From: Candidatus Latescibacterota bacterium
Lineage (GTDB): Bacteria > JAAXHH01
NCBI GenBank assembly: GCA_022823465.1
Contig: JAJEHX010000001.1
Coordinates: forward strand, 1 to 64,000
Length of the DNA stretch: 64,000 nucleotides
Direction: 5' to 3'
Within the stretch, counting starts at the first letter, position 1. Every line of letters starts with the position of its first letter. Shown here one piece after another: positions 6,621-30,956 of this stretch. The position numbers and the translations under genes are program-made. Below the pieces are notes generated by a model that had not been told where the DNA came from, did no database searches, and was given only the letters and a program-made list of their open reading frames with translations.

Positions 6621-6792
6621 GCGCTTTTCTTGTTAACTCCCTTTCGGAGGTCGTCCTTTCGGCGTCGTTCGTGTCGCAGGCAACTTCAGGAAACTGAAGA
6701 GAGAATATACCGCAATTACAGCCCCGAAGCAAAGTGGAACGGGTATGACGCGACGTGTTACGCGATTGCTGACTCCTGGTGCGTTGACTTGA

Positions 6793-7251
6793 TCAAACGA
6801 GCGGCAACGACCAGTTCTTCCATTTTCGCTCCCGGGAAGCGCCCAAGGACAGGTAGAATGCCTCGGCGGCGGTGTTTCCAGCCATGACCGTCCAGATCAG
6901 TTCACCCGCCCCGATGGTCCTGGCATGCGAGATCACTGCCTTCATCAACGCCTTTCCCGTTCCCATTTGTCGCGCAGCCTCTGTCACATACAGTTCCTTG
7001 AGCACGAGCTTTGGCCGAAGGGTGTACGTCCAAAGAATCGGATAAGTGACGGCCATACCGACAAGATCATCGTCCTGTTCGGCGACAAACGCAGTGAACA
7101 AACGGCTTTCGCCAAAACCGTGGTGTTGTATGCTCTCCCGCGTCACGGCGAAGTCTTGGATATAGTCCTCGAACCGCGCAAGCTCCCGCATGAGTTCGAG
7201 CAATCTGTCGACGTCCCGTGGCTCGGCCGGTCTGATGTGCATCAGAGTCAC
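6793..7251 (-). CDS. GNAT family N-acetyltransferase
   Basis: 152 residues, one complete GNAT domain. The acetyl-CoA loop is near residues 97-106 (EAARQMGTGKAL, the RxxGxG/A motif with an altered first position). Motif B near the end reads GNTAAEAFYLSLGA. The sequence RFEDYIQDFAVTRESI and the terminal RKWKNWSL resemble diamine or small-amine acetyltransferases, but the substrate cannot be assigned. The start is GTG at 7251, overlapping the TGA of the upstream threonine synthase as GTGA, so translation is probably coupled. An in-frame ATG three codons later (7242) is the alternative. Confidence 0.85.
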   Translation of the reverse strand: MTLMHIRPAEPRDVDRLLELMRELARFEDYIQDFAVTRESIQHHGFGESRLFTAFVAEQDDDLVGMAVTYPILWTYTLRPKLVLKELYVTEAARQMGTGKALMKAVISHARTIGAGELIWTVMAGNTAAEAFYLSLGASRERKWKNWSLPLV

Positions 7252-8456: not shown

Positions 8457-8523
8457 GATCGTTACCTTTGCCAGGGTTCCCGTCGCGTGGGGCCGTTCCG
8501 CGCTCTCTGCTGTCCTCGCGGAG

Positions 8524-8550
8524 CACACTCAGCACACTCAGTACACGCAG
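8524..8550. repeat. Three tandem 9-nt units upstream of thrC
   Basis: CACACTCAG occurs twice in a row and is followed by the variant TACACGCAG. The array lies 68-94 bases upstream of the threonine synthase start. Function unknown. Confidence 0.6.
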
Positions 8551-8589
8551 CACGCGGCTCTTCCGTGCATATTTTGTCTAGTGCAGCTT

Positions 8590-9462
8590 TCACAGGTCGA
8601 AGAACAGCCCGATGCCCCCGTAGTCATCCTGCTGGTGATGGAACTGGCCGTGTTCGCTGCGTCCGCCGTGGTATACGAGTGCCAGGCGAAGGCCGCGCGA
8701 ACCTTCATTGTGAAACATCAGTCCGGCGTGCGCCGTGCGATTGACCGTGAGGTCTCCGTCCCGAAAGACCCGCACATCGCAGGCAAGATAGACCCGGGTC
8801 GCCCCGCCCGTAAGGGGACTGGAGATCAGTTCCGTCCCAGCCTGGACCCGCCACCGCCGCACGCTCGGGATGGCGTGATTCGACCACCGAAGGCTGCCGT
8901 AGGCCCGCGCGCTTGCGAGCATACCACCTCGACGTGTTTCCCGCTCGTAGGCCCCGTACAGCGTGAAGTACTCCCGGCTGTAGGCGAAGGCCCGTTGCGG
9001 GCCGTCGTATCCATCGGCCAGATGGGCGCTCACGTGGGCATATTCGAAACGGCCCGTGAGCCGGCCGCTGCCCAGGTCCGCGTGCATCCCGATCAGGTAG
9101 TCGGCGGTCTCGAGAGGAAAGGTCGTACCGGACCAGCGCAACTTCGAGAAGACGCCCGCGTGGATCCCGGTACGGAACCGCAGCCTGTCCCCTTCGTCCC
9201 GGGTGTATTCGGCGGCTTCCCAGGAACCGCCGATATCCCCGTTCAAACGGTCGTCCAGATTGGTGGTCACGGCAAGCCGAGTCCCGGTCGGGTCGGCCAG
9301 CAACGGGCGGAACAGCGGTCGTTGTGGGGCGGCGAAGCGCCAGGTCCCGGCCGCTGCGTCGAGCGCCGTGAAGAGCGCCGGGACGGCCACCAGGGAAAGG
9401 AGGCAGGCGTGAACCAGCGTGCGTAAAAGGCGCTTTTTCTTTGCCGGGCCGCTCAGGTCCAT
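8590..9462 (-). CDS. Outer-membrane protein, DUF1207-like
   Basis: 290 residues with a signal anchor or peptide at about residues 10-38 (basic KKKRLL, then hydrophobic, ending ALDAAAG). The mature part has alternating polar/hydrophobic strands and ends in GGIGLFFDL, close to the aromatic C terminus of outer-membrane beta-barrels. The segment RPLFRPLLADPTGTRLAV matches the opening of DUF1207 proteins as I remember them. No enzymatic motif is visible; the role is structural or unknown. ATG at 9462. Confidence 0.65.
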   Translation of the reverse strand: MDLSGPAKKKRLLRTLVHACLLSLVAVPALFTALDAAAGTWRFAAPQRPLFRPLLADPTGTRLAVTTNLDDRLNGDIGGSWEAAEYTRDEGDRLRFRTGIHAGVFSKLRWSGTTFPLETADYLIGMHADLGSGRLTGRFEYAHVSAHLADGYDGPQRAFAYSREYFTLYGAYERETRRGGMLASARAYGSLRWSNHAIPSVRRWRVQAGTELISSPLTGGATRVYLACDVRVFRDGDLTVNRTAHAGLMFHNEGSRGLRLALVYHGGRSEHGQFHHQQDDYGGIGLFFDL

Positions 9463-16119: not shown

Positions 16120-16589
16120 TTCTCCATCCTCCTACAATACGCACACGTGTGCATATTGCTCAATTCATCCGCAAAGACAGACGACAGACCGACCGCTCGG
16201 CGGATTAGATTCATTCCGGGCCGTCCGCGAAGAACCCGGCTACCCAGATGTCTCGCTGGACGGCGCGAAATCGCGCAGTTATCTTCTTATATTGTTTTTG
16301 TATACGTTTTTAGCACACAAATCTTGATATTTCCTCAATCCTGTTGTTTTTCTGTATTCGGAACCTCTGCCTGAATCAACCTGCCAACCTGCCAGGCCAG
16401 CGGACAACACTGCCCATGGTAAATGTCCCGGCGGCCTGCGTCTCAGGTTGAACCGCCACGCACCGGACACCATGACAGCGTCCGGCAACCGTACAGCGCC
16501 GGATTTCGCGTCATTTAACGGCTTGTGATCCGGTGTGCCCGGTTGTAAAATGGTATGTTGGCCGGCAACATCGCCCGGGGTTGAGTACC
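16120..16589. other. Divergent intergenic region
   Basis: 470 bases between the sensor kinase and the large exported protein. It contains the palindrome at 16141-16152 and an AT-rich tract with T-runs around 16275-16355 that could hold promoters for either strand. I could not fix a -35/-10 pair and see no supported coding sequence. Confidence 0.4.
16141..16152. promoter_or_regulatory. Palindromic operator candidate (GCACACGTGTGC)
   Basis: A perfect 12-bp palindrome, extending to 18 bp with a single mismatched pair. It sits just upstream of the AGGAGG and TTG start of the kinase-regulator fusion. Its position suits autoregulation, which is inferred only. Confidence 0.4.
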
Positions 16590-19265
16590 ATGCGTATAAA
16601 ACTGTTTATCTGCCTTATTGTCTTTCTGGCGCCGTACCAATCCTCAAGCGCACGGCCGGAGAGTCCGCAAGCGGCGATCACTAAGCAAAGGGGCACGGAG
16701 CAATCGCCTGTGCGCCAGGAGGCCGCTGGCGCGGCACCGAGTGCGCTGGTCGCTGAGCGCGCGCCTCGTGCGCCCGCCCGCCAGGAGGCCGCCGCTCGCC
16801 AGAACGGCAGCCCACGCCTGCTCGTCGTAGACTACGCCATGGCTTATGCGGAAGAGAACACCCGGGTGATCCGGGCGTTCTCGGAAGCCGGTTTCGACGT
16901 CGATTACCGGCCGTATTATCCGGCCATGGTGGAACGGGACGCCGGTGGCTACGACGTCATCTTGCTGCTGGGCGGCGGCGATCCCGGCATGAGCATCCAG
17001 GAAGTGGATCTGGCCATCAACTTCGTTTCGAGGGGGAAAGTGCTTGTTTTGGCGATGCCGGCCGACGGTCCCTACGGTGAACGGCGAAAGGTCAATCCCG
17101 GTGTACACGACCGGTACCAGTTCAATGAGGTCCTGGCCCGCCTGAACATCAACCTGCACGCCCTGAACGCCGACCATGAAACCAGTCCCGTCCTGAATCC
17201 CGTGGTATACTTCGAACCCGCCGTCGGCCATCCGGTCGCACGGAGCCTGGAAGGGACTGTGGCCGCCCGGGCCGGCACCCGCCTGCTTGTGGGCGCCGGG
17301 GCCATGCCGCTGCTCGTGGAGCCGGAAGTGCCTGAGGAGGAACTCGAAGAGGCGCCGCCGCCTGAAGAAGAACCCGAGTACCGTATCGTCCGGCGCACCC
17401 TGCGCATCCAGCCCACCGACGCCATCGCCGGGGAAGATGTCGAACTGCTGTTACGCGGAAACCAGGAACTGCGGGCCAGCCTGTACTACCGGAACAGGGA
17501 ACGCCCCGCGCCGTCGGACTGGAACACAGCGAGGTTCAAGGGCAGAGTTGAAGGCGTTTCAGAAGCGAAAGACACGTTGACCGTACGCATGCCCGGAAAC
17601 CGATGGGGATCCGATTACGCGTTGGTCGGCGTTCCGGTGAAGGTCATCGCCGCCGCTTTCGCCGACCGGGAGATTAGGGAAGAGATCCGGTCCGAGGCGG
17701 ATCTCGAGTCCATGCGGGGCGACGAGGAGACCTTCGGCCGCATGGCGGTAGCGGCCGTGGGACGGACCGGCCGGCTGAACAAGGGATTCGTCCTGGCCGT
17801 TGACCGCCAGGCACTTACCGGCCTTGACCGGCCCCTGCCGCCTCTCGGCATCGGTCCCGTGGACCCGGGTCTCGAAGGGCTGGAAGGCTTTCTGGAGGGA
17901 CTCGCGCGGTACGTCCGTACGCTGGCCGATTTCCCCGGGGAATGGTCCCCCGACCACGACTATCCCACGGCCCAGATGCCAGGAAACCGGAAACCGGATA
18001 TCTCCCTCAACAACATTTCCATTCTGACGGTAGTGCCCGAACGGGTCCGGGTGATCGGCCGCGCGGCGTCCGGTCTCGATGCCGGTACGGTCACCGGCTC
18101 GATCGCCAGCCCGGGTGCAAACGCGGGTTCAGGTCCCGAACCGGGTTCGAACACTGGCTCCAGTCCAGGTCGAGGCACCCAAACGGATGCGGGTCTCGCT
18201 TCCGGCACGGCGGACGTCGCTCCACTTCGGGGCGTTTGGGATTTCGTCGCCCGCCGGCATGAACATGTAGCCGATCTCGCCGGCATGCTACCGGGCCTCG
18301 GGATGGATTTCCTGTGGACCGTGGCCCCGGCCGCCAGTTACACCGGGGGTACCGCGATTACGGGCGACGTGCGTTTCGAATCGTGGGCTTTGCCCATTTT
18401 CAACCGCCTGGGCAGTACGCCCACTGCCTGGTACGCTGGTATCAGCGCCCCTCGCGAGCGCGAGATCGCCGGCGCCTACACGGCCGCCCGTGACGCCCGT
18501 GGGGACGCCGTGGGGCTGCCCTCGCGACTGGACATGGCCTACCTGAACCGCCATCTCTTCGAACCTGCCCGCGCCATCGCCCGGTACAGCCGCGGCCGGG
18601 GGACCCTGCAGGCCATTGTGCACGACTGGGAACCCCATATCGCGCGGCCACTGGAAGCCTATGCCGCGACCGACGCATTCGACGACCTGCATTTCCGGTA
18701 CTTCATCCGCCATCTCGTCCGAAACGGGCTGTACCACGGCGAAGAATTCAAGTCGCTCATGGGGCTGGACCGGAAAAACCGGTTCGAGTGGCTGCTGAAG
18801 TCGGGATACCTCGAGACCTACATCCAACTCCAGGAAACCAACGCCGAACGCCTCGGCACACTGTATCGGAAGTCCATGGACGAGATCAACCCCGGACTGC
18901 GCCACGGCGCCTTCGTCCGTTCCCCGCGGCCGAACTGGTTTCACCTGGGCTTCTGGCGCGGCGCCGGCACGCCGGCACGCCCCTTTCTCGTGTTCTCCTA
19001 CGAACGGCCGCCGCCCTGGTACGCGCAGTTTCTCCGGGGGAAGGGCATATCAGCCCGTGTGATCCCCGTCGGACTGCTGGGGCTGATTGGCGACGCGGAT
19101 ATGGTGGATCTCCTCCAAAAGGCCTCCGATCAGGGCGGCTACGCCCTGGAGCGCGGCATATGGCTCGTCGCCGACCCTGGTGACGAATCGGAGTTGAACA
19201 CGCCTCCCGGGGGCATGTCGCGGGAAGCGCTGCTGGAGGCGATTCGGAAGGTGGTTGGGGAGTAG
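16590..19265 (+). CDS. Large exported protein of unknown function
   Basis: 891 residues from ATG 16590, which begins directly with a signal peptide (MRIKLFICLIVFLAP, cleavage near SSA). Residues about 65-250 look like a GATase/DUF4350-type alpha/beta domain (RLLVVDYAMAY, YDVILLLGGGDPGM, GKVLVLAMPADGPYGER). An acidic Pro/Glu stretch and a beta-rich segment follow. A Gly/Ser/Pro linker of about 40 residues lies near residue 510. The C-terminal 350 residues, with TVAPAASYTGGTAIT, DVRFESWALPIF and HDWEPHIARP, could be a TIM-barrel hydrolase-like domain. I do not recognise the full-length family. It is followed by its own terminator. A role in periplasmic or extracellular polymer handling is a guess. 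Confidence 0.75.
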   Translation: MRIKLFICLIVFLAPYQSSSARPESPQAAITKQRGTEQSPVRQEAAGAAPSALVAERAPRAPARQEAAARQNGSPRLLVVDYAMAYAEENTRVIRAFSEAGFDVDYRPYYPAMVERDAGGYDVILLLGGGDPGMSIQEVDLAINFVSRGKVLVLAMPADGPYGERRKVNPGVHDRYQFNEVLARLNINLHALNADHETSPVLNPVVYFEPAVGHPVARSLEGTVAARAGTRLLVGAGAMPLLVEPEVPEEELEEAPPPEEEPEYRIVRRTLRIQPTDAIAGEDVELLLRGNQELRASLYYRNRERPAPSDWNTARFKGRVEGVSEAKDTLTVRMPGNRWGSDYALVGVPVKVIAAAFADREIREEIRSEADLESMRGDEETFGRMAVAAVGRTGRLNKGFVLAVDRQALTGLDRPLPPLGIGPVDPGLEGLEGFLEGLARYVRTLADFPGEWSPDHDYPTAQMPGNRKPDISLNNISILTVVPERVRVIGRAASGLDAGTVTGSIASPGANAGSGPEPGSNTGSSPGRGTQTDAGLASGTADVAPLRGVWDFVARRHEHVADLAGMLPGLGMDFLWTVAPAASYTGGTAITGDVRFESWALPIFNRLGSTPTAWYAGISAPREREIAGAYTAARDARGDAVGLPSRLDMAYLNRHLFEPARAIARYSRGRGTLQAIVHDWEPHIARPLEAYAATDAFDDLHFRYFIRHLVRNGLYHGEEFKSLMGLDRKNRFEWLLKSGYLETYIQLQETNAERLGTLYRKSMDEINPGLRHGAFVRSPRPNWFHLGFWRGAGTPARPFLVFSYERPPPWYAQFLRGKGISARVIPVGLLGLIGDADMVDLLQKASDQGGYALERGIWLVADPGDESELNTPPGGMSREALLEAIRKVVGE

Positions 19266-19706: not shown

Positions 19707-19991
19707 ATGAAAAAACTCATTCTCTCCGTGTTTATGTTCGCCCTGATCGCGGGCGTGGGTGTCACCACCTCGGCCTCCGCGCCGGATGTGGAGTCTCCGA
19801 ACATCGTGGCGACACCGAATATCGCATACTGTCTGTGGGGTTCCAGTATAGCCCTCAATTCAGGTTATGTTTTCGGTGGCGCAGGTTTCGGAGTAGCAGG
19901 TGGCTGGGCGGTAGCCGCCGGATACGGCCTAGCGGCCACCCTGGGCATAGCTTCGGGAGTAGGTGCTGCGTTTCTTGCTGCCGGGGTATAA
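19707..19991 (+). CDS. Secreted hydrophobic, charge-free peptide precursor (bacteriocin-like)
   Basis: 94 residues. ATG at 19707 follows AGGAG at 19691-19695 by 11 bases. Residues 1-25 form a Sec-type leader (MKKLILSVF, cleavage after ASA). A short acidic linker (PDVESPN) follows. From residue 30 to 94 there is no D, E, K, R or H. This region is rich in Gly, Ala, Val and aromatic residues (YVFGGAGFGVAGGWAVAAGY) with one cysteine at 42. The composition resembles the mature part of circular bacteriocins and of Gly/Ala-rich class II microcins. The next genes (DUF95, Yip1, M48, MFP, MacB) suit maturation, export and immunity. A structural surface peptide is the main alternative. Function is inferred from composition and neighbourhood. 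Confidence 0.7.
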   Translation: MKKLILSVFMFALIAGVGVTTSASAPDVESPNIVATPNIAYCLWGSSIALNSGYVFGGAGFGVAGGWAVAAGYGLAATLGIASGVGAAFLAAGV

Positions 19992-20001
19992 GTAAGCCGG
20001 A

Positions 20002-20035
20002 GCGAAGGATGAAGGCTCATGCCTTCATCCTTCGC
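20002..20035 (+). terminator. Terminator-like/attenuating hairpin between peptide and export genes
   Basis: Perfect 15-bp stem (GCGAAGGATGAAGGC and its complement) with a TCAT loop, 10 bases after the peptide stop. It is followed by GATATATATAA, not a T-run. It probably works as a partial attenuator or 3' RNA stabiliser, giving more peptide than downstream proteins. It also contains a spurious upstream ATG for the next gene. Confidence 0.65.
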
Positions 20036-20060
20036 GATATATATAAGGACCGTGCATATC

Positions 20061-20642
20061 GTGAACGCTGCATCCGTGCGCTTGGCGAACAAGCTTCCTT
20101 TCCTGCTGTCTATTTGTTCCGTACTTATCGGAATGGGTATTGGCGCCATGATCCACCTTGGCCCCGAGGAGGACGGAGTAAATCCCGTGCGGTCTTCTCC
20201 ACTATATGCTAATACCCGACCACTGTTGGAAGATGGAGACGAAATGAGATTCATTTTGAGTACCAATTTACTCGTTTCCTGCAAAATGCTCTTGGGACTC
20301 ATAACCTGTGGGATGATCAGCATCGTTATGCTGATGTGGACAGGCATGAACATTTCATGGGCTGTGCAATCGGCACTGGAATCCGGTATTCCGTTGAATA
20401 CCGTAGCGGCTCTGATATTGCCGCATGGCATTATTGAACTGGCGGGATTCTTATTTTTCGGTTCGACAGGCTGCGAGGGGTTGTTACTGGTCTTCCGCAA
20501 ACTGAAATATGACGAGTGGCAGGTCGATTCGAGCAGGTTAAACCTGAATATCTGCCGTGTACTTGCAGGTTTCTTTTTGATTTCTTTCGCGTCTGTATTG
20601 GAGACTTTCGTCACTGGCCTGGTTTCGGCCAAATTCAACTGA
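20061..20642 (+). CDS. SpoIIM/DUF95 family membrane protein
   Basis: 193 residues from GTG 20061 (AAGGA at 20045-20049). An in-frame ATG at 20019 lies inside the hairpin and is rejected as start. There are four to five membrane segments. The family signature is clear: FILSTNLLVSCKMLLGLITCG, then VAALILPHGIIELAGFLFFG, and a final ISFASVLETFVTGL helix. SpoIIM/DUF95 proteins are a constant part of circular-bacteriocin loci, where they are implicated in maturation and self-protection. Here it directly follows a hydrophobic leader peptide, which supports that role. Developmental (sporulation) function is unlikely in this setting. Confidence 0.85.
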   Translation: MNAASVRLANKLPFLLSICSVLIGMGIGAMIHLGPEEDGVNPVRSSPLYANTRPLLEDGDEMRFILSTNLLVSCKMLLGLITCGMISIVMLMWTGMNISWAVQSALESGIPLNTVAALILPHGIIELAGFLFFGSTGCEGLLLVFRKLKYDEWQVDSSRLNLNICRVLAGFFLISFASVLETFVTGLVSAKFN

Positions 20643-20653
20643 ACGGGTCGAAC

Positions 20654-21289
20654 ATGAAAAGACACATGCGGATCTTTGAAAGGTTCTCATCAATCAGTAC
20701 GGCCGAGTCTATATGGATGGGCATCGGCGTGTTTGCCACTTACTTGGTTTCGAACGGTCTGGTGTTGTTCTTGGTGTTCAGCGTAATCAATGAGCACCTA
20801 CCGGATCATCTTTCAGGTTTATTTACGCAGGTGTTCCCTGTTCTGTACATCAGCATGGCAATGGGAGCCACACTAGGGGAGATCGTTACCTTTGTCCTTG
20901 GATGGTTATTCACTATTATCGCCGTAGCGCTGCTGAACGGTAAGCGGCAACATCGTGCTCTGTTCGGATGGCTAGGTATTGGATATCTCCCGGTCGCATT
21001 GTATTCGGTATTAGCATTTGTATTCATTCTGCTTTATTCCGACCAGATGGTCCCTGCCGGAGTGTCGAACATGTCCACAATCGAACAGCTGCCTGTTGAA
21101 ATAACGAAGATGCAAAATACCGGATGGTTCCAGTGGATACGATATGGACGATATATTGCATTAGTTCTGGTTGTCATATTCGCGATCGAAGTGGTGCACA
21201 GGGTCTGCGTGCTGTGCAGGTACAAGGCAATCGGGGTGTTACTGGTTTATGTCGTCCTTAACGTTTTCATACACGTGATCATTGCATAA
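20654..21289 (+). CDS. Yip1-like polytopic membrane protein
   Basis: 211 residues from ATG 20654, 11 bases after the DUF95 stop. About five hydrophobic segments are visible: two in the N-terminal half and the others around LFGWLGIGYLPVALYSVLAFVFILL, YIALVLVVIFAI and the C terminus. The pattern of a soluble N-terminal stub, LGWLFTIIAVALLNGKRQHRAL, then GYLP fits bacterial Yip1-domain proteins. The match is by pattern only. It is likely co-transcribed with its neighbours and may be an immunity or assembly component. Confidence 0.65.
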   Translation: MKRHMRIFERFSSISTAESIWMGIGVFATYLVSNGLVLFLVFSVINEHLPDHLSGLFTQVFPVLYISMAMGATLGEIVTFVLGWLFTIIAVALLNGKRQHRALFGWLGIGYLPVALYSVLAFVFILLYSDQMVPAGVSNMSTIEQLPVEITKMQNTGWFQWIRYGRYIALVLVVIFAIEVVHRVCVLCRYKAIGVLLVYVVLNVFIHVIIA

Positions 21290-21312
21290 GTCTGATAGGA
21301 TGGGAGTTTTCA

Positions 21313-22236
21313 GTGTGTGTTTCTACGTTCAGGCCAGACCAGAGAGTCGATCGTGCTGAGGATAAAGCGATCCGGTTGTCATGGCGGGAAAAGCTGGTAG
21401 AGGTCGGACTGCACATGGGCCTGGTGATGTCGGGTTTGTTGATTACCGTTGTCGTTTACTTCGGTTTACTGATCATAGCGTATGATGCAGTCGATACGAT
21501 CGTACCCGGCTTTTGGGTGGATTCATCTCTAAAGTTATTGGCTCTTGCAATTGTATCCGCCTGTATCGGTAATACATGCGCGTTTTGTTGCTTCCCCTAT
21601 CTGATACGACTGATCTTTCGAGGATATGAACTAAGGGACGTTCGCCTGGACCGCTCGGTGAGGAAACTTGTAACGGCGACAGGAATGAACATCATGGCAG
21701 AAAAGCTGTATGCTATAAAAGGAAAAACGGCGAACGCGGTTGTTTCAGGACTGTTTCGCAAATCACGGCACGTATTCTTTACGAACAAGATATTGGAGAA
21801 AATGACCGAAGAAGAAATCATCGCAATTTTTGCCCACGAACTGGCTCACGCAAAACACCGGCATATTCCTAAGATGTTGTTCGCTGTCATGCTATGGATA
21901 TGCGCATTCCAGACCTTCATGTATTTGATAGGCTTTAACCAATACTTCAATGAGATTGCTGAGTCCGTGAAGATGTGGGTTGCCGGGTTGATTACCTATT
22001 TACATGTATTGCTGATGATGTTCTTGGTTCTATTCCCCCTATCGAGAAGAAATGAGTATGAAGCGGATGCAACCGCAGCGACTTGGGTCGGCGTTGAGTG
22101 TTATAAAAGCGCCCTCCACCGCCTGTACCAGTTGAATGACAAATTAAAGCCACCTCCGGGATATTCGAAAGTACTTCAAACCCATCCCACCCTGCAAAAC
22201 CGTCTCGACCGCTTATCACGTTTGGACTCGAAATAG
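21313..22236 (+). CDS. M48 family membrane zinc metalloprotease
   Basis: 307 residues. GTG at 21313 follows GGGAG at 6 bases. Two N-terminal membrane helices (about 32-60 and 72-95) precede a conserved cytosolic stretch (YLIRLIFRGYELRD, LYAIKGKTANAVVSGLFRK). The active site HELAHAKHRH has zinc ligands H175 and H179 and catalytic E176. The third ligand is E248 in NEYEAD. Two further hydrophobic segments lie between them. HtpX/Ste24-type M48 enzymes cut membrane-bound substrates. In this operon the most attractive substrate is the leader of the hydrophobic peptide; quality control is the alternative. A close paralogue sits at 26765-27721 on the opposite strand. Confidence 0.9.
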   Translation: MCVSTFRPDQRVDRAEDKAIRLSWREKLVEVGLHMGLVMSGLLITVVVYFGLLIIAYDAVDTIVPGFWVDSSLKLLALAIVSACIGNTCAFCCFPYLIRLIFRGYELRDVRLDRSVRKLVTATGMNIMAEKLYAIKGKTANAVVSGLFRKSRHVFFTNKILEKMTEEEIIAIFAHELAHAKHRHIPKMLFAVMLWICAFQTFMYLIGFNQYFNEIAESVKMWVAGLITYLHVLLMMFLVLFPLSRRNEYEADATAATWVGVECYKSALHRLYQLNDKLKPPPGYSKVLQTHPTLQNRLDRLSRLDSK

Positions 22237-22256
22237 GTGCACCACATGCAGTTGGA

Positions 22257-23477
22257 ATGGATATGAAACCAATGAAGTTGGTTCGACTTGTCATAGTGCT
22301 GCTGACCCTCAGCGCGCTGACTGACCTACGCTTCGCTTCGTACGGAGCGTTGCCGGACTCCCTTGCGCTGTCCGAATTCGCCAGGATCATAACTGCTTTC
22401 TCGGAAGAAGCGGGCCACTTTCCAGGCGACAACTTCGTTACAAATGAAACGTCCTATCTGCACGTAGTTCCGACGGTAATCGAGCTGGGCAAACGTGGAG
22501 GTGTCTATATCGGTGTCGGAACCGAACAGAATTTCTCCTACATTGCCGCCACAAGGCCTGAGATCGTTTTTATCGTCGACATCCGTCGCAAGAACCTGCT
22601 TCAGCATCTGCTCTACAAAGCCCTGTTTGCCCTGGCCCGGGACCGCACGTCTTTCCTGATGCTGCTGTTCAGCAGACAGAATCTGGAAGGCGGATCGGCT
22701 TCGAACGAAGTACCGGAAAATACAGCCTCCGTTACGGAAGTCCTGGATTACATCGAATCGTCAACCTCGGCCGACTCACAGCTTTTCGAGCTGAACTGGA
22801 AGCGGCTGAAACGAGAAGTAAGACGATACGGGATCGTAGACCGGGAAGATCTCGAAAGGATGCTTTACATATACCGATCGTTTTACGAAAAGCAACTTTC
22901 GATCCGATACGCCGAAACACGACTCGGAAACGGCTTATCATATCCTACGTTCAAGGACCTGATGACCAGCACGACGATAGAAGGAGAATTCGCCGGTTTC
23001 CTAAGCACGGATACAAAATTCGAATTCGTTAGAGACCTGCATCTCAGAAATCTGATCATTCCCGTCGTGGGCGACTTCGCGGGCGAGAAGACGTTGAGAG
23101 CCATCGCCTCATTCGCTGAAGCTCACGATACGAGTATATCCGTTCTCTATGTGTCGAACGTAGAGTATTTCCTCATAAATCACTTCTACTACATATTCAA
23201 ATGGTACGTCGCGAATGTCGATGCGCTTCCGATCGATGAACACAGCCTCATGATTCGCTCATACCTTGGCGTGGAATCCCACCCCAAGCGGGTCGGCCGG
23301 CATATGTCCACAAGTACGGTACATCACATCAGTACGTTCCTGGAGCGTTTTCGCCAGGGTGCGTATACCCGTTCGAAACCGATCTGGTGGAGGTTCTGGC
23401 CCTGGGACAGGCCATTCTGGTCGGGAGGCGGACACAGTTACTACCATCTGGTCATTATGGGAGACCTATGCCCTTGA
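22257..23477 (+). CDS. Exported Rossmann-like protein of unknown function
   Basis: 406 residues from ATG 22257. An in-frame ATG at 22263 fits the TTGGA upstream slightly better. A signal peptide is visible (KLVRLVIVLLTLSALTDL). The core reads GGVYIGVGTEQNFSYIA, then VFIVDIRRKNLLQHLLYKALF, a pattern like motifs I and II of SAM-binding folds. A second block is PVVGDFAGEKTLRAI with YVSNVEYFL. I remember this as a conserved uncharacterised bacterial family with no assigned activity. Finding an exported member inside the peptide cluster is unusual. The C terminus is rich in tryptophan (WWRFWPWDRPFW). The gene overlaps the next by 10 bases. Confidence 0.7.
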   Translation: MDMKPMKLVRLVIVLLTLSALTDLRFASYGALPDSLALSEFARIITAFSEEAGHFPGDNFVTNETSYLHVVPTVIELGKRGGVYIGVGTEQNFSYIAATRPEIVFIVDIRRKNLLQHLLYKALFALARDRTSFLMLLFSRQNLEGGSASNEVPENTASVTEVLDYIESSTSADSQLFELNWKRLKREVRRYGIVDREDLERMLYIYRSFYEKQLSIRYAETRLGNGLSYPTFKDLMTSTTIEGEFAGFLSTDTKFEFVRDLHLRNLIIPVVGDFAGEKTLRAIASFAEAHDTSISVLYVSNVEYFLINHFYYIFKWYVANVDALPIDEHSLMIRSYLGVESHPKRVGRHMSTSTVHHISTFLERFRQGAYTRSKPIWWRFWPWDRPFWSGGGHSYYHLVIMGDLCP

Positions 23478-24199
23478 ACGCTACTACAGACATGAGAAGT
23501 TATCCCACCCGATGGCTAAGGGTCCTGTACAATCCCAGGAAGGCATATGCAGAGCTTGAAACCGAACATTCTGCCACTGAGTGGATACTGATTCTGATCG
23601 TTGTCATGTCGATCGTCCTTTGTGCCGGGATAATAACTTTACCAGTTGCGCTGAACACAGAACGGGAACTGATCGAAACAGAACTCCGGTCGTATTCGAG
23701 TCTAAATACAGTTCAGCAATCTGTCATTCTGCGCGAGGCGTCGAAACTCGACCATCGACAACTCGTCGGTCTTCTGATCATGCCGGCCAGCGTCTGCTTT
23801 CTGATTGTTGCGTGGTCGGTAGTTGGAAAACACTGCGGCGAGATGATATTCGGCAAGCTTTTGCCGTACGACAGGGTCCTTTCGATTACTGGCTATGCCT
23901 CGCTTGTCCTCGTACCCGAAACAGTCGTCAAGACCATACTGGTTTTGCTTTACGGGTCGCTTGATCCTGCCATCCATCCAGGCGTGTTTCTCGATGATAC
24001 ATACCTCGAAACCCTGCCAGGGATATTCCTGTCAGGTGTAGACTTTTTCGGTATCTGGTTTCTTTACCTGCTGGGGCTCGGCCTGGCTCAAACTTTCCGG
24101 GGATCATCTACGTTCACCTGGCTCGTGCTGGGACTTGTATGGTGTGCGTGGATTGTCATTCGCAGGACCATGGAGATTATCGGTACTGTTTACGTGTAG
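23468..24199 (+). CDS. Yip1-domain membrane protein
   Basis: 243 residues. ATG at 23468 lies inside the end of the preceding gene after GGGAGA, indicating translational coupling. The N terminus WLRVLYNPRKAYAEL is the typical soluble lead-in of bacterial Yip1 proteins. Five membrane segments follow, with SVVGKHCGEMIFGKLLPYDRVLSITGYASLVLVPE and a final WLVLGLVWCAWIVI. It sits directly before the adaptor and permease, so an accessory or protective role in export is plausible. It is the second Yip1-like protein of the operon and more typical of the family than the first. Confidence 0.8.
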   Translation: MPLNATTDMRSYPTRWLRVLYNPRKAYAELETEHSATEWILILIVVMSIVLCAGIITLPVALNTERELIETELRSYSSLNTVQQSVILREASKLDHRQLVGLLIMPASVCFLIVAWSVVGKHCGEMIFGKLLPYDRVLSITGYASLVLVPETVVKTILVLLYGSLDPAIHPGVFLDDTYLETLPGIFLSGVDFFGIWFLYLLGLGLAQTFRGSSTFTWLVLGLVWCAWIVIRRTMEIIGTVYV

Positions 24200-24220
24200 A
24201 ACGAGGGCATCATCGCACTC

Positions 24221-25435
24221 ATGAAAAAAGGGATAGTCATTGCCTGTGTATCGGTCTGTAGCCTCTGTGCCGTATTGCTGTACTTCTTATACGGTTCCAC
24301 AGATCGGACGGTCTCGTATCGAACTCACCAGGTCCGCCACGGCCCGATCTCCGACGTCCTGACGGAAACAGGCACGATCCAGTACGTCAGGACCGTCATG
24401 GTCAAACCTACGGTATCCGGGGAAGTCAGACATCTTCACGCCGATGTCGGGGATCGAATCGCAGAGGGGGAAGTACTTGCCGTGATAGAGCCGGATCCGT
24501 CTCAGTCCCTTCAGCTGTCCCGGCAACGCGCCAGGGTTGACGGTGCCCGAATAGATCTTTCAGAGCAGGAAATGACCTTTGAGAGAAAGCGTAAACTGTA
24601 TGAGGGATCCCTGATTTCGTCTGAGGAATTCGACAGGGCAAGGATTGAGAACACCAGGGCCCATCACAATCTCAATATGGCGGAGCTTGAACTCAGGATA
24701 TTGGAATTGAAGGTGAATGTCGAGGTGGACTCGAACAAAACCCATGGTGCCGTAAGGGTCCTGTCCCCGTTGACCGGTATCGTCATTGCTCGCATGGTGG
24801 AGACGGGTGAGGTCGTTGCGTCGGGTACTTCTTCGTATACCGGCGGTACGGAGATGTTCCGCATTGGCGATCCGGGCAGAATGATTGTCAGATCGGCCAT
24901 TGGAGAAATAGACGCGGGACGGGTCAGGCCGGGGCAGGAGGTGCGGATTCGTGTCGATGCCTACCCGGATGCAATGTACAGTGGGCGTGTTGAACGGGTG
25001 GCGCCGGTCGGAGTGCGAAAACCCGGGAGTACGCTTGTCACGTTCGATACCGAAATCGTGATCTCGAATCCATCGCTGGAGTTACAACAGGGAATGTCCT
25101 GTGATATCGACATCGTGGTGGAGAAGAATGACAGTTCGGTGCTGGTTCCCGCTTCTTCAGTCATGGAATTGGATGTTTACAAGGATATGATCACTGAACG
25201 GAAGGATCCGGCATTGACTGGACAGGTACCCGGCAAGCGACACATCGTCTATCGATGTAACTCAGTGGAATCTGAAAGGTCCACATGTTCGGCAGCGTAT
25301 CTGGAATCGTCCCTGGTCGAGATCGGTATTGAATCTGCCGAAAACGTGGAGATCCTGTCCGGTATTGTACCCGGCGTTCACATTGCGCTGGATGCAAGAG
25401 CGGTCTTTTCCGCGCTGAATTCAAAACACCGGTAG
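24221..25435 (+). CDS. MacA/HlyD-type periplasmic adaptor protein
   Basis: 404 residues with one N-terminal membrane anchor (residues 4-23). The first half-lipoyl motif is VMVKPTVSGEVRHLHADVGD followed by GEVLAVIEPD. A coiled-coil hairpin spans about residues 90-165. The second lipoyl half is VRVLSPLTGIVIARMVETGE, and a beta-barrel region (RIRVDAYPDAMYSGRVERV) follows. This is the layout of adaptor subunits that couple a MacB-type permease to an outer-membrane channel or outer-leaflet substrate. No outer-membrane TolC-like gene is present nearby. It is 34 bases from the permease gene. In AS-48-type loci an HlyD-like protein occupies the same relative position. Confidence 0.9.
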   Translation: MKKGIVIACVSVCSLCAVLLYFLYGSTDRTVSYRTHQVRHGPISDVLTETGTIQYVRTVMVKPTVSGEVRHLHADVGDRIAEGEVLAVIEPDPSQSLQLSRQRARVDGARIDLSEQEMTFERKRKLYEGSLISSEEFDRARIENTRAHHNLNMAELELRILELKVNVEVDSNKTHGAVRVLSPLTGIVIARMVETGEVVASGTSSYTGGTEMFRIGDPGRMIVRSAIGEIDAGRVRPGQEVRIRVDAYPDAMYSGRVERVAPVGVRKPGSTLVTFDTEIVISNPSLELQQGMSCDIDIVVEKNDSSVLVPASSVMELDVYKDMITERKDPALTGQVPGKRHIVYRCNSVESERSTCSAAYLESSLVEIGIESAENVEILSGIVPGVHIALDARAVFSALNSKHR

Positions 25436-25469
25436 TCCGCTGATTGCAAAATTGTCGGATCCGAGGGTT

Positions 25470-26693
25470 ATGTCGATAACGCACCATATTCATACGGTGA
25501 TCACCAATCTCTTTCATTACAGGCTGCGTTCAGTCCTGACGTTACTGGGCATTGCGGTCGGCATAGGCGCCGTAACGGGAATCCTCTCGATTGGCGAAGG
25601 GCTTCACGGCATGGTGATGAAGGAATTCGAATCCGTGCGCGGCGGCACCATGGTATGGGTGAGTCCATCAAGATTCGTAAACCGGGAAGGGCGTTGGACC
25701 GCGGTATCGGATTACGAACATCTCCTTTGGCAGGATATGCTGGAAATCGGGAGAAGATCGAACGCTGTCCGTCAACTGGTCCCTGCCGCGACATTGAATG
25801 CGGATCTCAGATACGCGAAAATGTCCTATGGCGGAATGTTGTACGGCACGACGCCTTTATTTCCGGATATGTACCAATGGTCGGTTTCAACGGGTCGGTT
25901 CATTATCGACCGTGACGTCGAACGATGGCGCAAAGTGTGCGTGCTGGGCGATGAGTTGGCCGCTAAACTGTTTGACGATACCACGCCGGTCGGCAAGGAG
26001 CTGAAATTGAATGGGCAGAGATTTGCCGTGATCGGTGTCATGCAGCCCAAGACCGTGTTCAATGAGAGCTGGGGGAATAGAGTATTCGTTCCGATTACAA
26101 CGGTCCAGAAACGGATGCTTGGGCATGAAGGCTTCGATCAATTGTCCATTAAGGTAGCGGATACGAGTATGATGGATAGTGCGGTGGATGACATTGAGGC
26201 GGCCTTGAAAGCAAACCATGGCGATGCGGCTGGATTTGACATAGTCAATGGCAAAAACGCCATGGATCAGATAGGCGACGTGATAAGCGCGGTTAAATCG
26301 TCGATTGCCGCCGTAGCGGGTATCTCTCTGATGGTGGGTGGAATCGGGATCATGAATATGATGCTGGTCTCCGTTACAGAACGGAGGCGGGAAATAGGGA
26401 TCAGGAAGTCAGTGGGGGCAAGACATGTCGACATCGTGAAGCAATTTACGCTGGAAGCCATAAGCATCAGTACGTTGGGAGGGCTGCTGGGGTTATCGCT
26501 GGGACTGGGTCTTGGTTCGGTTTTCTCCTTTGTCTTGAATCAGGCATGGAATCTCAGTTTCACGAGCGGAACGTCGGTATCCAATATCCTCATATCGCTG
26601 GCGATTTCACTGGCAATTGGTCTTTGTGCCGGTATTTATCCCGCTTTGAAGGCGTCGCAGTTGAGCCCGGTGGATGCGATGAACCAGGAGTGA
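25470..26693 (+). CDS. MacB-type ABC transporter permease (no ATPase domain)
   Basis: 407 residues from ATG 25470. TTG at 25452 is an alternative, and the ribosome site is weak for both. The first helix (LTLLGIAVGIGAVTGILSIGEG) is followed by a large MacB periplasmic domain of about 230 residues. Three C-terminal helices then form the FtsX fold (SLMVGGIGIMNMMLVSVTERRREIGIRKSVGA). The coupling-helix sequence ERRREIGIRKSVGA is intact, so it should bind a LolD/MacB-like ATPase. No Walker-motif protein is encoded in this cluster, so the ATPase must come from elsewhere. It likely exports or extracts the peptide or provides immunity. Confidence 0.9.
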   Translation: MSITHHIHTVITNLFHYRLRSVLTLLGIAVGIGAVTGILSIGEGLHGMVMKEFESVRGGTMVWVSPSRFVNREGRWTAVSDYEHLLWQDMLEIGRRSNAVRQLVPAATLNADLRYAKMSYGGMLYGTTPLFPDMYQWSVSTGRFIIDRDVERWRKVCVLGDELAAKLFDDTTPVGKELKLNGQRFAVIGVMQPKTVFNESWGNRVFVPITTVQKRMLGHEGFDQLSIKVADTSMMDSAVDDIEAALKANHGDAAGFDIVNGKNAMDQIGDVISAVKSSIAAVAGISLMVGGIGIMNMMLVSVTERRREIGIRKSVGARHVDIVKQFTLEAISISTLGGLLGLSLGLGLGSVFSFVLNQAWNLSFTSGTSVSNILISLAISLAIGLCAGIYPALKASQLSPVDAMNQE

Positions 26694-26764
26694 GTCCCGT
26701 ATGCCCGGCTCGTAATTTTCTTTCCGACACGGACAACCCGCCGAAAGTGCCAACAGAGCACCAT

Positions 26765-27721
26765 TCAAGCGTCCCCAACCCGCTCCAGCCGCTCCTGAAG
26801 CGTAGGATGCGTCCCCAGTTTCGCCAGGACCTTCCTCGGCGGTTTAAGTCGATCATTCAGTTGATGCAGCCGGTACAACGCTTGCTTATAGCAGTCAATA
26901 CCCACCCACCGGGCCGCGGTCGCGTCCGCCTGGTATTCGTGCCGTCTTGAAAGCGGAAACAAGACGAGGAGTACCAGCAGATAGAAGTTCACTGCGGTCA
27001 ATCCGCCACTCGCCCACATTTGCCAGTACTCGTCGATAGTCTGGAAATAGGCGTTAAGGGCGGTCAGCCGTATGAATACCTGGACCACGCACATCCATAG
27101 CAAGACGGCCAGCAACATCCTGGGCATGTGTTTGTGCTTCACGTGCGCCAGTTCGTGGGCGAGGATTGCCGAGATTTCTTCTTCATTCATTCTCTCCAGG
27201 AGCTTGTCGGTGAAAAAGATATACTGGGCCTTGCGAAACAGGCCGGACACGGCGGCGTTGGCCGTCCTGCCTTTTATGGCGTATATCTTTTCGGGCTTTA
27301 TGTCCATCCCGGTCACGGCTATCAAGCGTTTCAAAGCGCGGTCGATCCGCTCGTCCTTCAGCTCGTAGCCGCGGAAAATGAGTCGAATCAGGTAGGGAGC
27401 GCAGACGAACGAACAGGCATTGCCGATGGCCGCGCACAGGACGATCAGGACGACGAATGAAATTGAACCCGGCTCTGCAAATCCCGGAGCCAACTCGTCG
27501 AAGGCACTGTACATGATAAACAGAGAAGCTATGATTATGATCACCGCGATCAGCATGCCGCACACGATCATTGCCCCCATCAGGCCGGCTTCGACCAGCT
27601 TCTCGCGCCAGTTCAGCCGGATCACGTCATCATCGTCCCGCGTCACCGAGTCTGCGCTCGGTTCCTGGTTTCCTTGCGGTACCTGGTTTTCTAATGGATT
27701 GCCGTCCGTGGCATCATGCAA
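26765..27721 (-). CDS. M48 family membrane metalloprotease, paralogue of 21313-22236
   Basis: 318 residues. The start is TTG at 27721, 8 bases after GGAG; no ATG is available near the N terminus. Zinc site HELAHVKHKH has H189, E190 and H193, and the third ligand lies in the HEYQAD motif. The sequence is strongly similar to the operon's other M48 protein throughout (IRLxWREKLVEaGL, PYLIRLIFRGYEL, KIYAIKGRTANAAVSGLFRK). It has an extra hydrophilic N-terminal extension of about 30 residues (DDDD region). It is convergent with the permease gene and must have its own promoter. The two may process different substrates or different steps. Confidence 0.9.
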   Translation of the reverse strand: MHDATDGNPLENQVPQGNQEPSADSVTRDDDDVIRLNWREKLVEAGLMGAMIVCGMLIAVIIIIASLFIMYSAFDELAPGFAEPGSISFVVLIVLCAAIGNACSFVCAPYLIRLIFRGYELKDERIDRALKRLIAVTGMDIKPEKIYAIKGRTANAAVSGLFRKAQYIFFTDKLLERMNEEEISAILAHELAHVKHKHMPRMLLAVLLWMCVVQVFIRLTALNAYFQTIDEYWQMWASGGLTAVNFYLLVLLVLFPLSRRHEYQADATAARWVGIDCYKQALYRLHQLNDRLKPPRKVLAKLGTHPTLQERLERVGDA

Positions 27722-28841: not shown

Positions 28842-30197
28842 ATGAAGACCACCGTTGTGCCGTCCTTTCGAGTTATGTCTGGGTTATTGTCCAGGCAACG
28901 CAAATGCACTATTCCCTCCCTGAGTATAACTTCCCCGATTCCTTTCCTGCTCGTGTTTCTGGCAGTGACCGCATGCGGCAGCGGCGGTGATCCGCCCGTG
29001 GCCACATCCGACTGCGTGGAATGCCACCGGCAGGCCACGCCCGGAATCGTCACGGACTGGGAGCTCAGCACCCACAGCACGAATGGCGTGGACTGCGCTA
29101 TGTGTCATGGAGGCGGGCACCGCACGGAGGACGACGTCGCCTTGGCCGGGGTCGCCACCCCCGACGTGTGCGCCACGTGCCATCCGATCCAGGTCGAGCA
29201 GTTCGCGGGGGGCAAGCACGCGCTCGCATGGGCCAGCATGAACGCCATGCCGACGACCCACTTCCTGCCGATGGCCCTGACGGAGGGGATGAAGGGCTGC
29301 GGCGGATGTCACCGCATCGGCCTCAAGACCGAAGAAGAAATCAAGACGATCAAGGCGCAGGACGGGCTGTTCGGCCTGTCGTCCTGCGACGTCTGCCATA
29401 CCCGCCATCTCTTCTCGGTGAAGGAGGCCATGGAGCCCCAGGCGTGCAGGACGTGCCACATGGGCTTCGACCATCCGCAGTGGGAGATGTACTCGTCCTC
29501 CAAGCACGGCGTCAGGCACCTGCTCAAGCAGAACGGCACGCTGCCCGCGCACGCCCAGGCGCCCACGTGCCAGACCTGCCACATGCCACAGGGAGACCAC
29601 GGCGTGCGGACCGCGTGGGGGTTCCTGGCCGTCCGCCTGCCCATGCCGGAAGACCCGCAGTGGGCGGCGGACCGGGCAACGATACTGCAGGCGCTCGGGG
29701 TACTGGATCCGGAAGGTAACCCCACGCCTCGCCTGGAGGTGGTCAAACAGGCCGACGTGGCACGGCTGACCGAGGAAGACTGGCAGCGGGAGCGCGACCG
29801 CATGACCGGCATCTGCGAGCAGTGCCACTCGGCCAATCTCGTGCGGGCCGAACTTGAAAAAGGCGACGAGATGATCCGCGAGACAGACCGGCTCCTGGCC
29901 GAGGCGATCCGCATCGTCGCCACACTGTACCGGGACGGGATACTGGCCCGACCGGAACACTACACCTACGACTATCCCGATCTGCTGGCGTTCCACGACG
30001 CGCCTACGATGATTGAGCAGCGGCTGTTCAGGATGCACCTGGAGCATCGGATGAGGGCGTTCCAGGGGACCTTCCACAACAATCCGGATTACGCGCTGTG
30101 GTACGGCTGGAGTGAAATGGTGCAGGACCTGGCCGAAATCCGGGCGCTCGCCCGGGACCTGCGGGAAGACGCCGGTCGGCGCGGCAAGGCGGAGTAA
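28842..30197 (+). CDS. Octahaem HAO-like cytochrome c lipoprotein
   Basis: 451 residues. The N terminus has a long basic and hydrophobic leader ending in a lipobox (LAVTAC, Cys45). Eight CxxCH haem sites appear in order: CVECH, CAMCH, CATCH, CGGCH, CDVCH, CRTCH, CQTCH and CEQCH. The C-terminal helices (MRAFQGTFHNNPDYALWYGWSEMVQDLAEI) match the hydroxylamine oxidoreductase (HAO) superfamily. Such enzymes interconvert hydroxylamine, nitrite or NO. Whether this one oxidises or reduces depends on a cross-linking tyrosine I cannot assign by eye. The following NapC-type gene suggests electrons arrive from quinol, favouring a reductive role as in epsilonproteobacterial HAO/CycX systems. Lipid anchoring of an HAO is notable. 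Confidence 0.85.
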   Translation: MKTTVVPSFRVMSGLLSRQRKCTIPSLSITSPIPFLLVFLAVTACGSGGDPPVATSDCVECHRQATPGIVTDWELSTHSTNGVDCAMCHGGGHRTEDDVALAGVATPDVCATCHPIQVEQFAGGKHALAWASMNAMPTTHFLPMALTEGMKGCGGCHRIGLKTEEEIKTIKAQDGLFGLSSCDVCHTRHLFSVKEAMEPQACRTCHMGFDHPQWEMYSSSKHGVRHLLKQNGTLPAHAQAPTCQTCHMPQGDHGVRTAWGFLAVRLPMPEDPQWAADRATILQALGVLDPEGNPTPRLEVVKQADVARLTEEDWQRERDRMTGICEQCHSANLVRAELEKGDEMIRETDRLLAEAIRIVATLYRDGILARPEHYTYDYPDLLAFHDAPTMIEQRLFRMHLEHRMRAFQGTFHNNPDYALWYGWSEMVQDLAEIRALARDLREDAGRRGKAE

Positions 30198-30199
30198 TT

Positions 30200-30323
30200 G
30201 GCCGGCGCGGTCGAAGCGGCTGGTGCGGTCGTAGTGATCGGCGCGGTCGAAGCAGTTGGAGCGGCCGAAGTGGCTGGTTCGGTCTGGGACTGGAGCGGTC
30301 GAAGTGGCCGGCGCGGACTGGGA
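30200..30323. repeat. Degenerate 18-nt tandem repeat between the HAO-like and NapC-like genes
   Basis: About seven units around the theme GGCCGGCGCGGTCGAAGC, one of them shortened to 16 bases, start right after the TAA stop. The reading frame stays open to 30338 and would encode GAVEAA-like hexapeptides if the stop were read through. Probably recent slippage or duplication. Confidence 0.75.
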
Positions 30324-30338
30324 CAGGAGGCGAACTGA

Positions 30339-30956
30339 GTGACCGGATACACCGTCAGCCTCATCGTCCTGGCGCTCGCCACGCTCGCCATGATCGCGGT
30401 ACTCCTGCGGCGGCCGGACATGGCCGCCACGGCCGGAGGCATGGTATTCGCGTTTTTCACTTTCTTCCTGCTGCCGGGCACGGCCCTGCTCGGCGGCGCC
30501 GTGCAGCACTACGAGCAGGCCAAGACCACGGAATTCTGCGTCTCCTGCCACGTCAATCAGCCCTACGAAGAGAGTCTCTACATCGATGACGGGCGGTTCC
30601 TGCCTGCCGCGCATTTCCAGAACAAGCGGGTCCCGGCGGAGCGCGCCTGCTATGCCTGCCATTCGGACTACACCATGTTCGGGGACGTGGACGATAAGAT
30701 CCGGGGCGTGCGGCACGTCTGGCACAATGTCTTGGGGACCTGGTCCACGCCCGTCGCGTTGTACAAGCCTTACGAAAACACGGCCTGTCTCGAATGCCAC
30801 GCGGGTGCGCGTTCGTACGAGGATCATCCGGAGCACCGGCCCTATCTTCGGGAACTCGTCGACGGTTCGAAATCTTGCGTAATGTGCCACAATCTGGTGC
30901 ACGAGGTGGACAAGCTGGATCGATTCGGGAAATGGGAACCGGAGGTTGGCGAATGA
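30339..30956 (+). CDS. NapC/NirT-type tetrahaem cytochrome c (quinol dehydrogenase)
   Basis: 205 residues from GTG 30339, preceded by GGAGG. Two hydrophobic N-terminal segments (about 5-22 and 32-52) anchor it; classical NapC has one. Four CxxCH sites follow: CVSCH (C67), CYACH, CLECH and CVMCH. The spacing and the ERACYACHSDYTMFG segment fit NapC/NirT/CycX proteins, which take electrons from the quinol pool and pass them to periplasmic multihaem reductases. The obvious partner is the octahaem protein just upstream. Its stop overlaps the start of the 70-residue membrane protein. Confidence 0.88.
   Translation: MTGYTVSLIVLALATLAMIAVLLRRPDMAATAGGMVFAFFTFFLLPGTALLGGAVQHYEQAKTTEFCVSCHVNQPYEESLYIDDGRFLPAAHFQNKRVPAERACYACHSDYTMFGDVDDKIRGVRHVWHNVLGTWSTPVALYKPYENTACLECHAGARSYEDHPEHRPYLRELVDGSKSCVMCHNLVHEVDKLDRFGKWEPEVGE

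Follow-up and report, generated by a model that had tools for sequence, protein, structure and literature searches.

The window analyzed here, a 64,000-nucleotide stretch of a Candidatus Latescibacterota genome (assembly GCA_022823465.1, contig JAJEHX010000001.1), carries eight co-directional genes arranged head-to-tail at positions 19707-26693 (Table 1). The first gene encodes a small hydrophobic precursor peptide. It is followed in order by genes for a SpoIIM/DUF95 protein, a Yip1-like protein, an M48 metalloprotease (M48a), a DUF7790 protein, a YknW/Yip1 protein, a membrane-fusion protein (MFP) adaptor and a MacB-type permease. The intergenic gaps range from -10 to +27 nt, which is consistent with a single operon. 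A preliminary description made from the DNA alone had proposed a secreted-peptide system related to those of circular bacteriocins. Pfam and NCBIfam searches locate the peptide, DUF95/SpoIIM, Yip1-like, M48, Yip1, HlyD/MacA, MacB and convergent M48 genes where that description had placed them, and the protein it termed exported and Rossmann-like is identified as a DUF7790 protein.

The bacterial group carrying this locus is little studied and double-membraned. Between species, the peptide core and three neighboring membrane-protein genes have been swapped, as expected of a weapon or a recognition signal.

Table 1. Coordinates of the peptide operon, its convergent neighbor and the exchangeable segment, in window positions
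Feature	Coordinates	Strand	Remarks
Precursor peptide, 94 aa from ATG	19707..19991	+	Leader 1-38 (Sec-type signal, conserved (T/S)PN); Gly/Ala-rich core 39-94
SpoIIM/DUF95 membrane protein, 207 aa, start uncertain	20019..20642	+	Pfam PF01944 4.8e-12
Yip1-like multi-helix membrane protein, 211 aa	20654..21289	+	Yip1 match in 10/12 family members
M48a membrane metalloprotease, HtpX-like	21313..22236	+	HELAH motif; PF01435 3.9e-29
DUF7790 protein	22257..23477	+	N-terminal signal; PF25046 1.3e-38
YknW/Yip1-family transporter accessory protein	23468..24199	+	PF04893 2.1e-10; NF052650 YknW 8e-7, under the NCBIfam cut-off
Membrane-fusion/periplasmic adaptor, MacA/YknX-like	24221..25435	+	PF16576 2.5e-17; TIGR01730 1.3e-33, over the cut-off
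MacB/YknZ-like permease without ATPase domain	25452..26693	+	PF12704 9.6e-40; PF02687 1.2e-19
M48b, convergent paralogue of M48a	26765..27721	-	M48 family match (Pfam)
Exchangeable cassette: peptide core, SpoIIM, Yip1-like, M48a	19821..22236	+	Boundaries at peptide codon 36-42 and M48a 3' end

A two-part precursor and its constant neighbors

The precursor is bipartite. Its leader is conserved and closes with (T/S)PN, whereas the core that follows is hypervariable and rich in Gly and Ala. In an alignment of 14 precursors, those from the window's genus have MKKLILSVFMFALIAGASVNSTANA in common with few changes, followed by a spacer that ends in (T/S)PN. The P-N pair is present in 13 of the 14 sequences and is followed by I, L or A, and the remaining sequence has PQ. 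A Cys at position 42 is conserved, and the C terminus carries a Gly and then one last, mostly hydrophobic residue. Many precursors have a second Cys, which is missing from the window peptide and from those of loci L018, L019 and L020. When the alignment is split at residue 42, precursors from the genus average 80% identity over residues 1-42 and 46% over the remainder. Within one allelic type, the ratio of nonsynonymous to synonymous substitution rates (dN/dS) is 0.33 for the leader and 0.88 for the core, and it ranges from 0.17 to 0.27 for the SpoIIM, Yip1-like, M48a and DUF7790 genes. The leader is under purifying selection, and this together with the retention of the open reading frame (ORF) in 13 genomes indicates that the peptide gene is real and not a chance ORF.

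The window core contains no D, E, K, R or H after residue 38. The peptide had been described as charge-free, which is accurate for this sequence but is not a trait of the family, as the cores of its relatives carry some charged residues. If cleavage is assumed to follow N38, the cores are 52-61 aa long, with net charges of -2 to +1 and grand average of hydropathy (GRAVY) values of 0.9-1.4. The leader of 37-38 aa lies within the 2-48 aa range of circular bacteriocins, whereas most cores, as delimited by this predicted site, fall slightly short of the about 58-70 aa found there. An AlphaFold model of the precursor is unusable, with a mean predicted local distance difference test score (pLDDT) of 52.

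The distribution of the locus was established in 16 genomes of the window's phylum, of which 12 belong to the window's genus and one (G013) to another genus of the same family. SpoIIM is encoded by 13 of the 16, namely all 12 members of the genus and G013, and is missing from G012, G014 and G015. A separate peptide profile recovers the same 13 genomes, with one locus in each. Thus, every genome with SpoIIM also has the peptide (13 of 13), and the other three have neither. The preliminary description had asked whether a short Gly/Ala-rich ORF always precedes such an operon, and indeed it does in every genome that has the operon. In one genome (G005; L020:8762-9427), two tandem precursors with unlike cores precede a single SpoIIM gene. 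Within the genus, the gene order is complete wherever contigs permit, and M48a is found in each locus whose contig extends far enough. The precursor is therefore constantly coupled to SpoIIM, the Yip1-like protein, M48a, DUF7790 and YknW. The run in G013 likewise extends from the peptide through SpoIIM, Yip, M48 and DUF7790 to YknW, where it ends, so that the minimal unit comprises the genes from the peptide to YknW.

DUF7790 was considered as a marker for the system and discarded, because elsewhere it is mostly a lone gene. Its paralogues in G012, G013, G014 and G015 (L118-L124) are 33-38% identical to the operon copy and occur as single genes whose surroundings vary; some of them have lipoprotein-like N-termini. 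The operon protein is slow-evolving, and one remote relative of it has a solved structure (PDB 6ulo, 9e-13).

Exchange of a cassette on a conserved backbone

Beyond what had been described previously, comparison of loci within the genus reveals that the peptide core, SpoIIM, the Yip1-like protein and M48a are exchanged as a single unit while the backbone around them is conserved. Loci L018 and L021 encode proteins that are 87-91% identical outside this unit (DUF7790 90%, YknW 87%, MFP 90%, MacB 90%, M48b 91%), but only 48% identical for SpoIIM, 50% for the Yip1-like protein and 59% for M48a. M48b therefore evolves with the backbone rather than with the cassette. Between L018 and the window, the Yip1-like proteins are 78% and M48a 76% identical, compared with 79% for DUF7790 and 67% for YknW.

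The limits of the exchanged segment are sharp at the DNA level. L018 and L021 are 91-93% identical upstream of the peptide and 100% identical through peptide codon 35. Identity drops from codon 36-42, remains at 53-69% until the end of M48a, and returns to 93% in the next bin, from DUF7790 onward. The left breakpoint coincides with the proposed leader/core junction. Tree comparisons reveal the same conflict. The backbone tree rejects a grouping of the window with L018 (approximately unbiased (AU) test, p = 1.7e-37), whereas the cassette tree unites these two with support of 99/98 and rejects the placement of L018 with its backbone relatives (AU p = 3.3e-56). The groups tested were prompted by the identity comparison, and the p-values leave ample room for that choice. 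At least three cassette types can be distinguished, comprising the window and L018; L016, L017 and L019; and L020-L026.

Guanine-plus-cytosine (GC) content also differs between the two parts, at 45-53% for the cassette and 52-58% for the backbone. The preliminary description had noted that the tract is richer in AT than its flanks and had suggested acquisition. The base composition is as described (47-53% GC across the tract versus roughly 60-65% in the flanks), and the low-GC cassette explains part of it. However, several genus members share the same upstream neighbor, a gene for a 910-aa protein, which indicates a fixed chromosomal site. The operon occupies one conserved site throughout the genus, which argues against recent acquisition of the whole tract, and only the internal cassette moves.

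In the window, this 910-aa protein is the left neighbor of the locus (16533-19265); it is exported and has no Pfam match. Between its gene and the peptide gene, loci L021, L018, L020 and L025 carry a conserved small charged ORF (~92-114 aa, ...QFEEDLEQIRDDISRIREDI...) that is not seen in the window.

A conserved leader, an exchangeable core and linked membrane proteins together resemble the organization of polymorphic bacteriocin, immunity or recognition loci. Such exchange is not expected of a housekeeping membrane peptide. Because M48a is constant and is exchanged with the core, SpoIIM and the Yip1-like protein, the three proteins would form a set, matched to the core, that serves in processing or immunity. 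For circular bacteriocins, it is not known which enzyme removes the leader and circularizes the core (PMC8534725, PMC8659200), and the cassette makes this question of processing and immunity directly testable. We propose SpoIIM as a maturation/cyclization or immunity factor and M48a as the leader peptidase. The constant, cassette-linked occurrence of M48a is the strongest genetic pointer to the latter role that the comparison provides.

Comparison with circular bacteriocins

In build, the precursor resembles those of the group ii circular bacteriocins (gassericin A, plantaricyclin A/plantacyclin B21AG; class IIc cyclic), in which a hydrophobic leader ends in Asn before a hydrophobic residue, as the predicted leader does here. 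Their records read ...TTAN/IYWIADQFG for gassericin A, ...ATVN/IVWIARQFG for plantacyclin B21AG and ...LFTN/IYFIANKLG for a third, with the slash marking the presumed cleavage point as we place it from the literature. Group ii cores are neutral, 58 aa long and have GRAVY values of about 1.0 (PMC6131525), and their leaders have an asparaginyl cleavage site (PMC8659200). The cores predicted here are comparable in charge, size and GRAVY, are rich in Gly and Ala in their C-terminal half, and likewise adjoin a SpoIIM gene. In contrast, no precursor homology is detectable, and the leader here is a longer, Sec-like signal. Moreover, the group ii systems belong to Gram-positive lactobacilli and have an ATPase and an ABC-2 permease directly downstream, whereas M48, DUF7790 and Yip1-like genes are added here. 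The likeness is thus one of build, not of kinship.

The accessory genes invite a second comparison. The cerecyclin (cyc) and AS-48 (as-48A-D1, EFGH) clusters also combine a precursor, SpoIIM, a Yip1-family protein (in cyc), an HlyD/MFP and a MacB-like permease (PMC8534725), and the operon permease is 26% identical to AS-48H (6e-29). Unlike the present operon, they encode ATPases, known clusters include a small immunity protein, and here all genes lie in one co-directional run. M48 and Yip1 genes have been reported in some circular-bacteriocin clusters, including two of group 1 in which M48 is the third gene after the precursor, the position that it also has here (PMC8659200). However, M48 is the exception in those clusters, whereas it is constant here and exchanged along with the core.

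The SpoIIM family provides a further point of contact. In a search of 7.3 Gb of plasmids, the top match, although not significant (E = 3), comes from a Priestia circular-bacteriocin cluster in which the SpoIIM gene is accompanied by YIP1, four circularin/uberolysin precursors, an ATPase and an MFP. The SpoIIM family profile gives the Priestia SpoIIM 50.5 bits and the Listeria AS-48-like SpoIIM 33.9 bits, compared with at most 27.1 bits for 29 generic SpoIIMs. In a tree that includes seven plasmid SpoIIMs (six from annotated circular-bacteriocin clusters and one Geobacillus homologue of unproven context), the family is placed beside all seven and the compact SpoIIM of a distant genome, G069, apart from the 29 generic proteins. 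A clade of the family and the circular-bacteriocin proteins without the G069 protein is not preferred, yet it is not rejected (AU 0.38).

In the G069 locus (L187, G069:C10:55000-68000, 5985-9106), from a genome with OEP domains, the compact SpoIIM gene immediately follows an ORF of 67 aa that bears a signal and is rich in Gly and Ala, and it precedes genes for three membrane proteins and then an ABC ATPase. The locus may be a similar unit, possibly an independent relative, in another lineage.

Taken together, these comparisons lead us to regard the locus, which belongs to a bacterium with two membranes, as probably encoding a secreted, membrane-active, bacteriocin-like peptide whose specificity is exchangeable and whose mode of operation is like that of circular bacteriocins. 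We base this reading on the invariant co-occurrence, the conserved gene order, the contrast between leader and core, the cassette mosaic with its tree conflict, the tandem precursors, the group ii-like size and GRAVY of the cores, the SpoIIM grouping, and the presence in the genome of an orphan MacB-type ATPase and TolC homologues. The earlier proposal of a circular-bacteriocin-related system is accordingly sustained with regard to the leader/core organization, the side of the SpoIIM tree, and the set of Yip1, MFP and MacB genes that mirrors as-48EFGH, cyc and YknWXYZ.

Several results weigh against this reading. Profile scores of circular-bacteriocin and generic SpoIIMs overlap, with a difference that is not significant (p = 0.14), and the tree grouping has support of just 67/86 on long branches. 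The precursor has no match in Pfam, NCBIfam or the PDB, and its hidden Markov model (HMM) gives at most 4.3 bits against the Priestia, AS-48, gaaA, plc and paracasei precursors. These comparisons thus reveal no direct homology of the peptide to known bacteriocins. An ATP-binding protein is required in a circular-bacteriocin cluster (PMC8534725), and known clusters regularly include both an ATPase and a small cationic immunity peptide (PMC8534725, PMC6131525). Neither the ORF list nor Pfam reveals an ATPase between 19707 and 27721, a gap that the preliminary description did not point out, and the intergenic gaps hold no small cationic hydrophobic immunity ORF. The sister genus, represented by G013, lacks the adaptor and permease beside its operon, and the best permease elsewhere in that genome is only 32% identical to the operon permease. 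Finally, a signal-type leader and a conserved Cys42 also fit a linear, SDP-like peptide. With no precursor homology and neither ATPase nor immunity peptide in the operon, membership among the circular bacteriocins is not established.

Transport, mechanism and competing explanations

The operon encodes YknW, an MFP and a MacB-type permease together, which correspond to the YknW (Yip1), YknX (MFP) and YknZ (MacB-type permease) components of YknWXYZ. This Bacillus transporter expels the SDP peptide toxin and thus protects from a hydrophobic peptide (PMC4887032). Unlike YknWXYZ, the operon lacks a YknY ATPase, and its pump genes share the operon with a peptide-production cassette. No YknY/AS-48G-type partner is encoded in the window operon, and in the other loci the genes are, as a conserved feature, spaced too tightly to accommodate one. 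A candidate is an orphan MacB-type ATPase, at G000:C49:231810-232526 beside a gene that we take to be ComEC-like, which is 43% identical to AS-48G. Two further ATPases in the window genome are paired with adaptors in the absence of a permease, and MacB-type ATPases of this permease-less kind in G000 include the orphan as well as those of L195 and L200. The window genome also has some 20 long MacB_PCD/FtsX permeases (~800 aa) without an ATPase domain. Most MacB_PCD matches other than the operon permease are open frames of this ADOP-type size, which indicates that separation of permease and ATPase is common in this genome. We infer that the operon permease pairs with an unlinked ATPase. The double-membrane cell proposed earlier is borne out by 12 TolC/OEP domains in the window genome.

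Gene content, co-occurrence, the leader/core division and cassette exchange are observed directly, and from these we infer the following biochemical steps. The precursor would be inserted by Sec, and M48a, signal peptidase or both would remove its leader, with the cut most likely falling at PN38, before the hydrophobic residue, or close to it. SpoIIM, with the Yip1-like protein, would mature the neutral core of 52-61 aa, perhaps by joining its ends head to tail, or confer matched immunity, or both. YknW, the adaptor and MacB, together with an ATPase encoded elsewhere and a TolC-type channel, could then export the peptide or protect the producer. The targets would probably be close relatives. 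A more ambitious version, which we hold only tentatively, is that the locus represents a class of Sec-delivered, cyclized peptides of double-membrane bacteria in which a dedicated M48 protease is the leader peptidase or cyclase partner of SpoIIM. Species would trade the protease, the core, SpoIIM and the Yip1-like protein as a specificity cassette on a fixed chromosomal backbone, which would form a kin-discrimination locus within the genus. Almost all reported circular-bacteriocin clusters are from Firmicutes; Actinobacteria account for two and Thermotogae for one (PMC8534725). If the bacteriocin-like reading is true, this kind of system extends to a double-membrane candidate phylum.

The strongest competitor, which we consider rather unlikely, is a linear SDP-like cannibalism or kin-discrimination peptide that never becomes cyclized after its export by Sec and its trimming by signal peptidase and M48a. 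SpoIIM and the Yip1-like protein would then be matched immunity proteins, a role that suits their exchange along with the core, and YknW-adaptor-MacB would expel returning toxin as YknWXYZ does for SDP in Bacillus. The typical Sec-like leader, the conserved Cys42, the second Cys of many members and the YknW family match all agree with such a peptide, given that the SDP efflux pump YknWXYZ includes a Yip1 protein as YknW (PMC4887032). Against it, the window peptide and three others lack the second Cys, and Pfam and NCBIfam scans of the operon proteins reveal nothing like SdpA, SdpB or SdpI. To our knowledge, SpoIIM is not part of SDP systems. It is present in all circular-bacteriocin clusters (PMC6131525).

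An improbable alternative is that the peptide is a secreted signal or recognition peptide and not a toxin, with the peptide, a processing protease and a membrane receptor defining incompatible pheromone types. Block exchange of the peptide, protease and membrane proteins is what one would expect of a signal and its processing and reception partners, but the operon has no histidine kinase, regulator or cytoplasmic receptor, and the GRAVY of its cores is far above the hydrophobicity of typical diffusible pheromones. Least probable is a membrane peptide with a structural or stress-related role in a housekeeping envelope operon, since relaxed constraint on a hydrophobic segment would accord with the near-neutral core dN/dS and with presence at one site in every genus genome, but explains neither the sharp exchange with three membrane proteins under purifying selection nor the conserved leader, PN and Cys and the duplicate precursors.

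Several minor observations concern individual proteins and the surroundings of the operon. The Yip1-like protein of the window has no family match alone, and the matches among its relatives are weak and recurrent (best 8e-4). Its AlphaFold model is all-helical (pLDDT 83), and a fold search against the PDB returned nothing below E = 0.001. The two Yip1-type operon proteins do not match each other in a profile comparison, so that paralogy between them is not demonstrable. Neither RNA families nor a tRNA-linked insertion were found at the locus, and a defense or phage origin was considered and rejected, as PADLOC and PHROGs gave no meaningful match. Just downstream, at window positions 28842-30956, lies a pair of multihaem cytochrome c genes of the cytochrome c554/NapC-NirT type.

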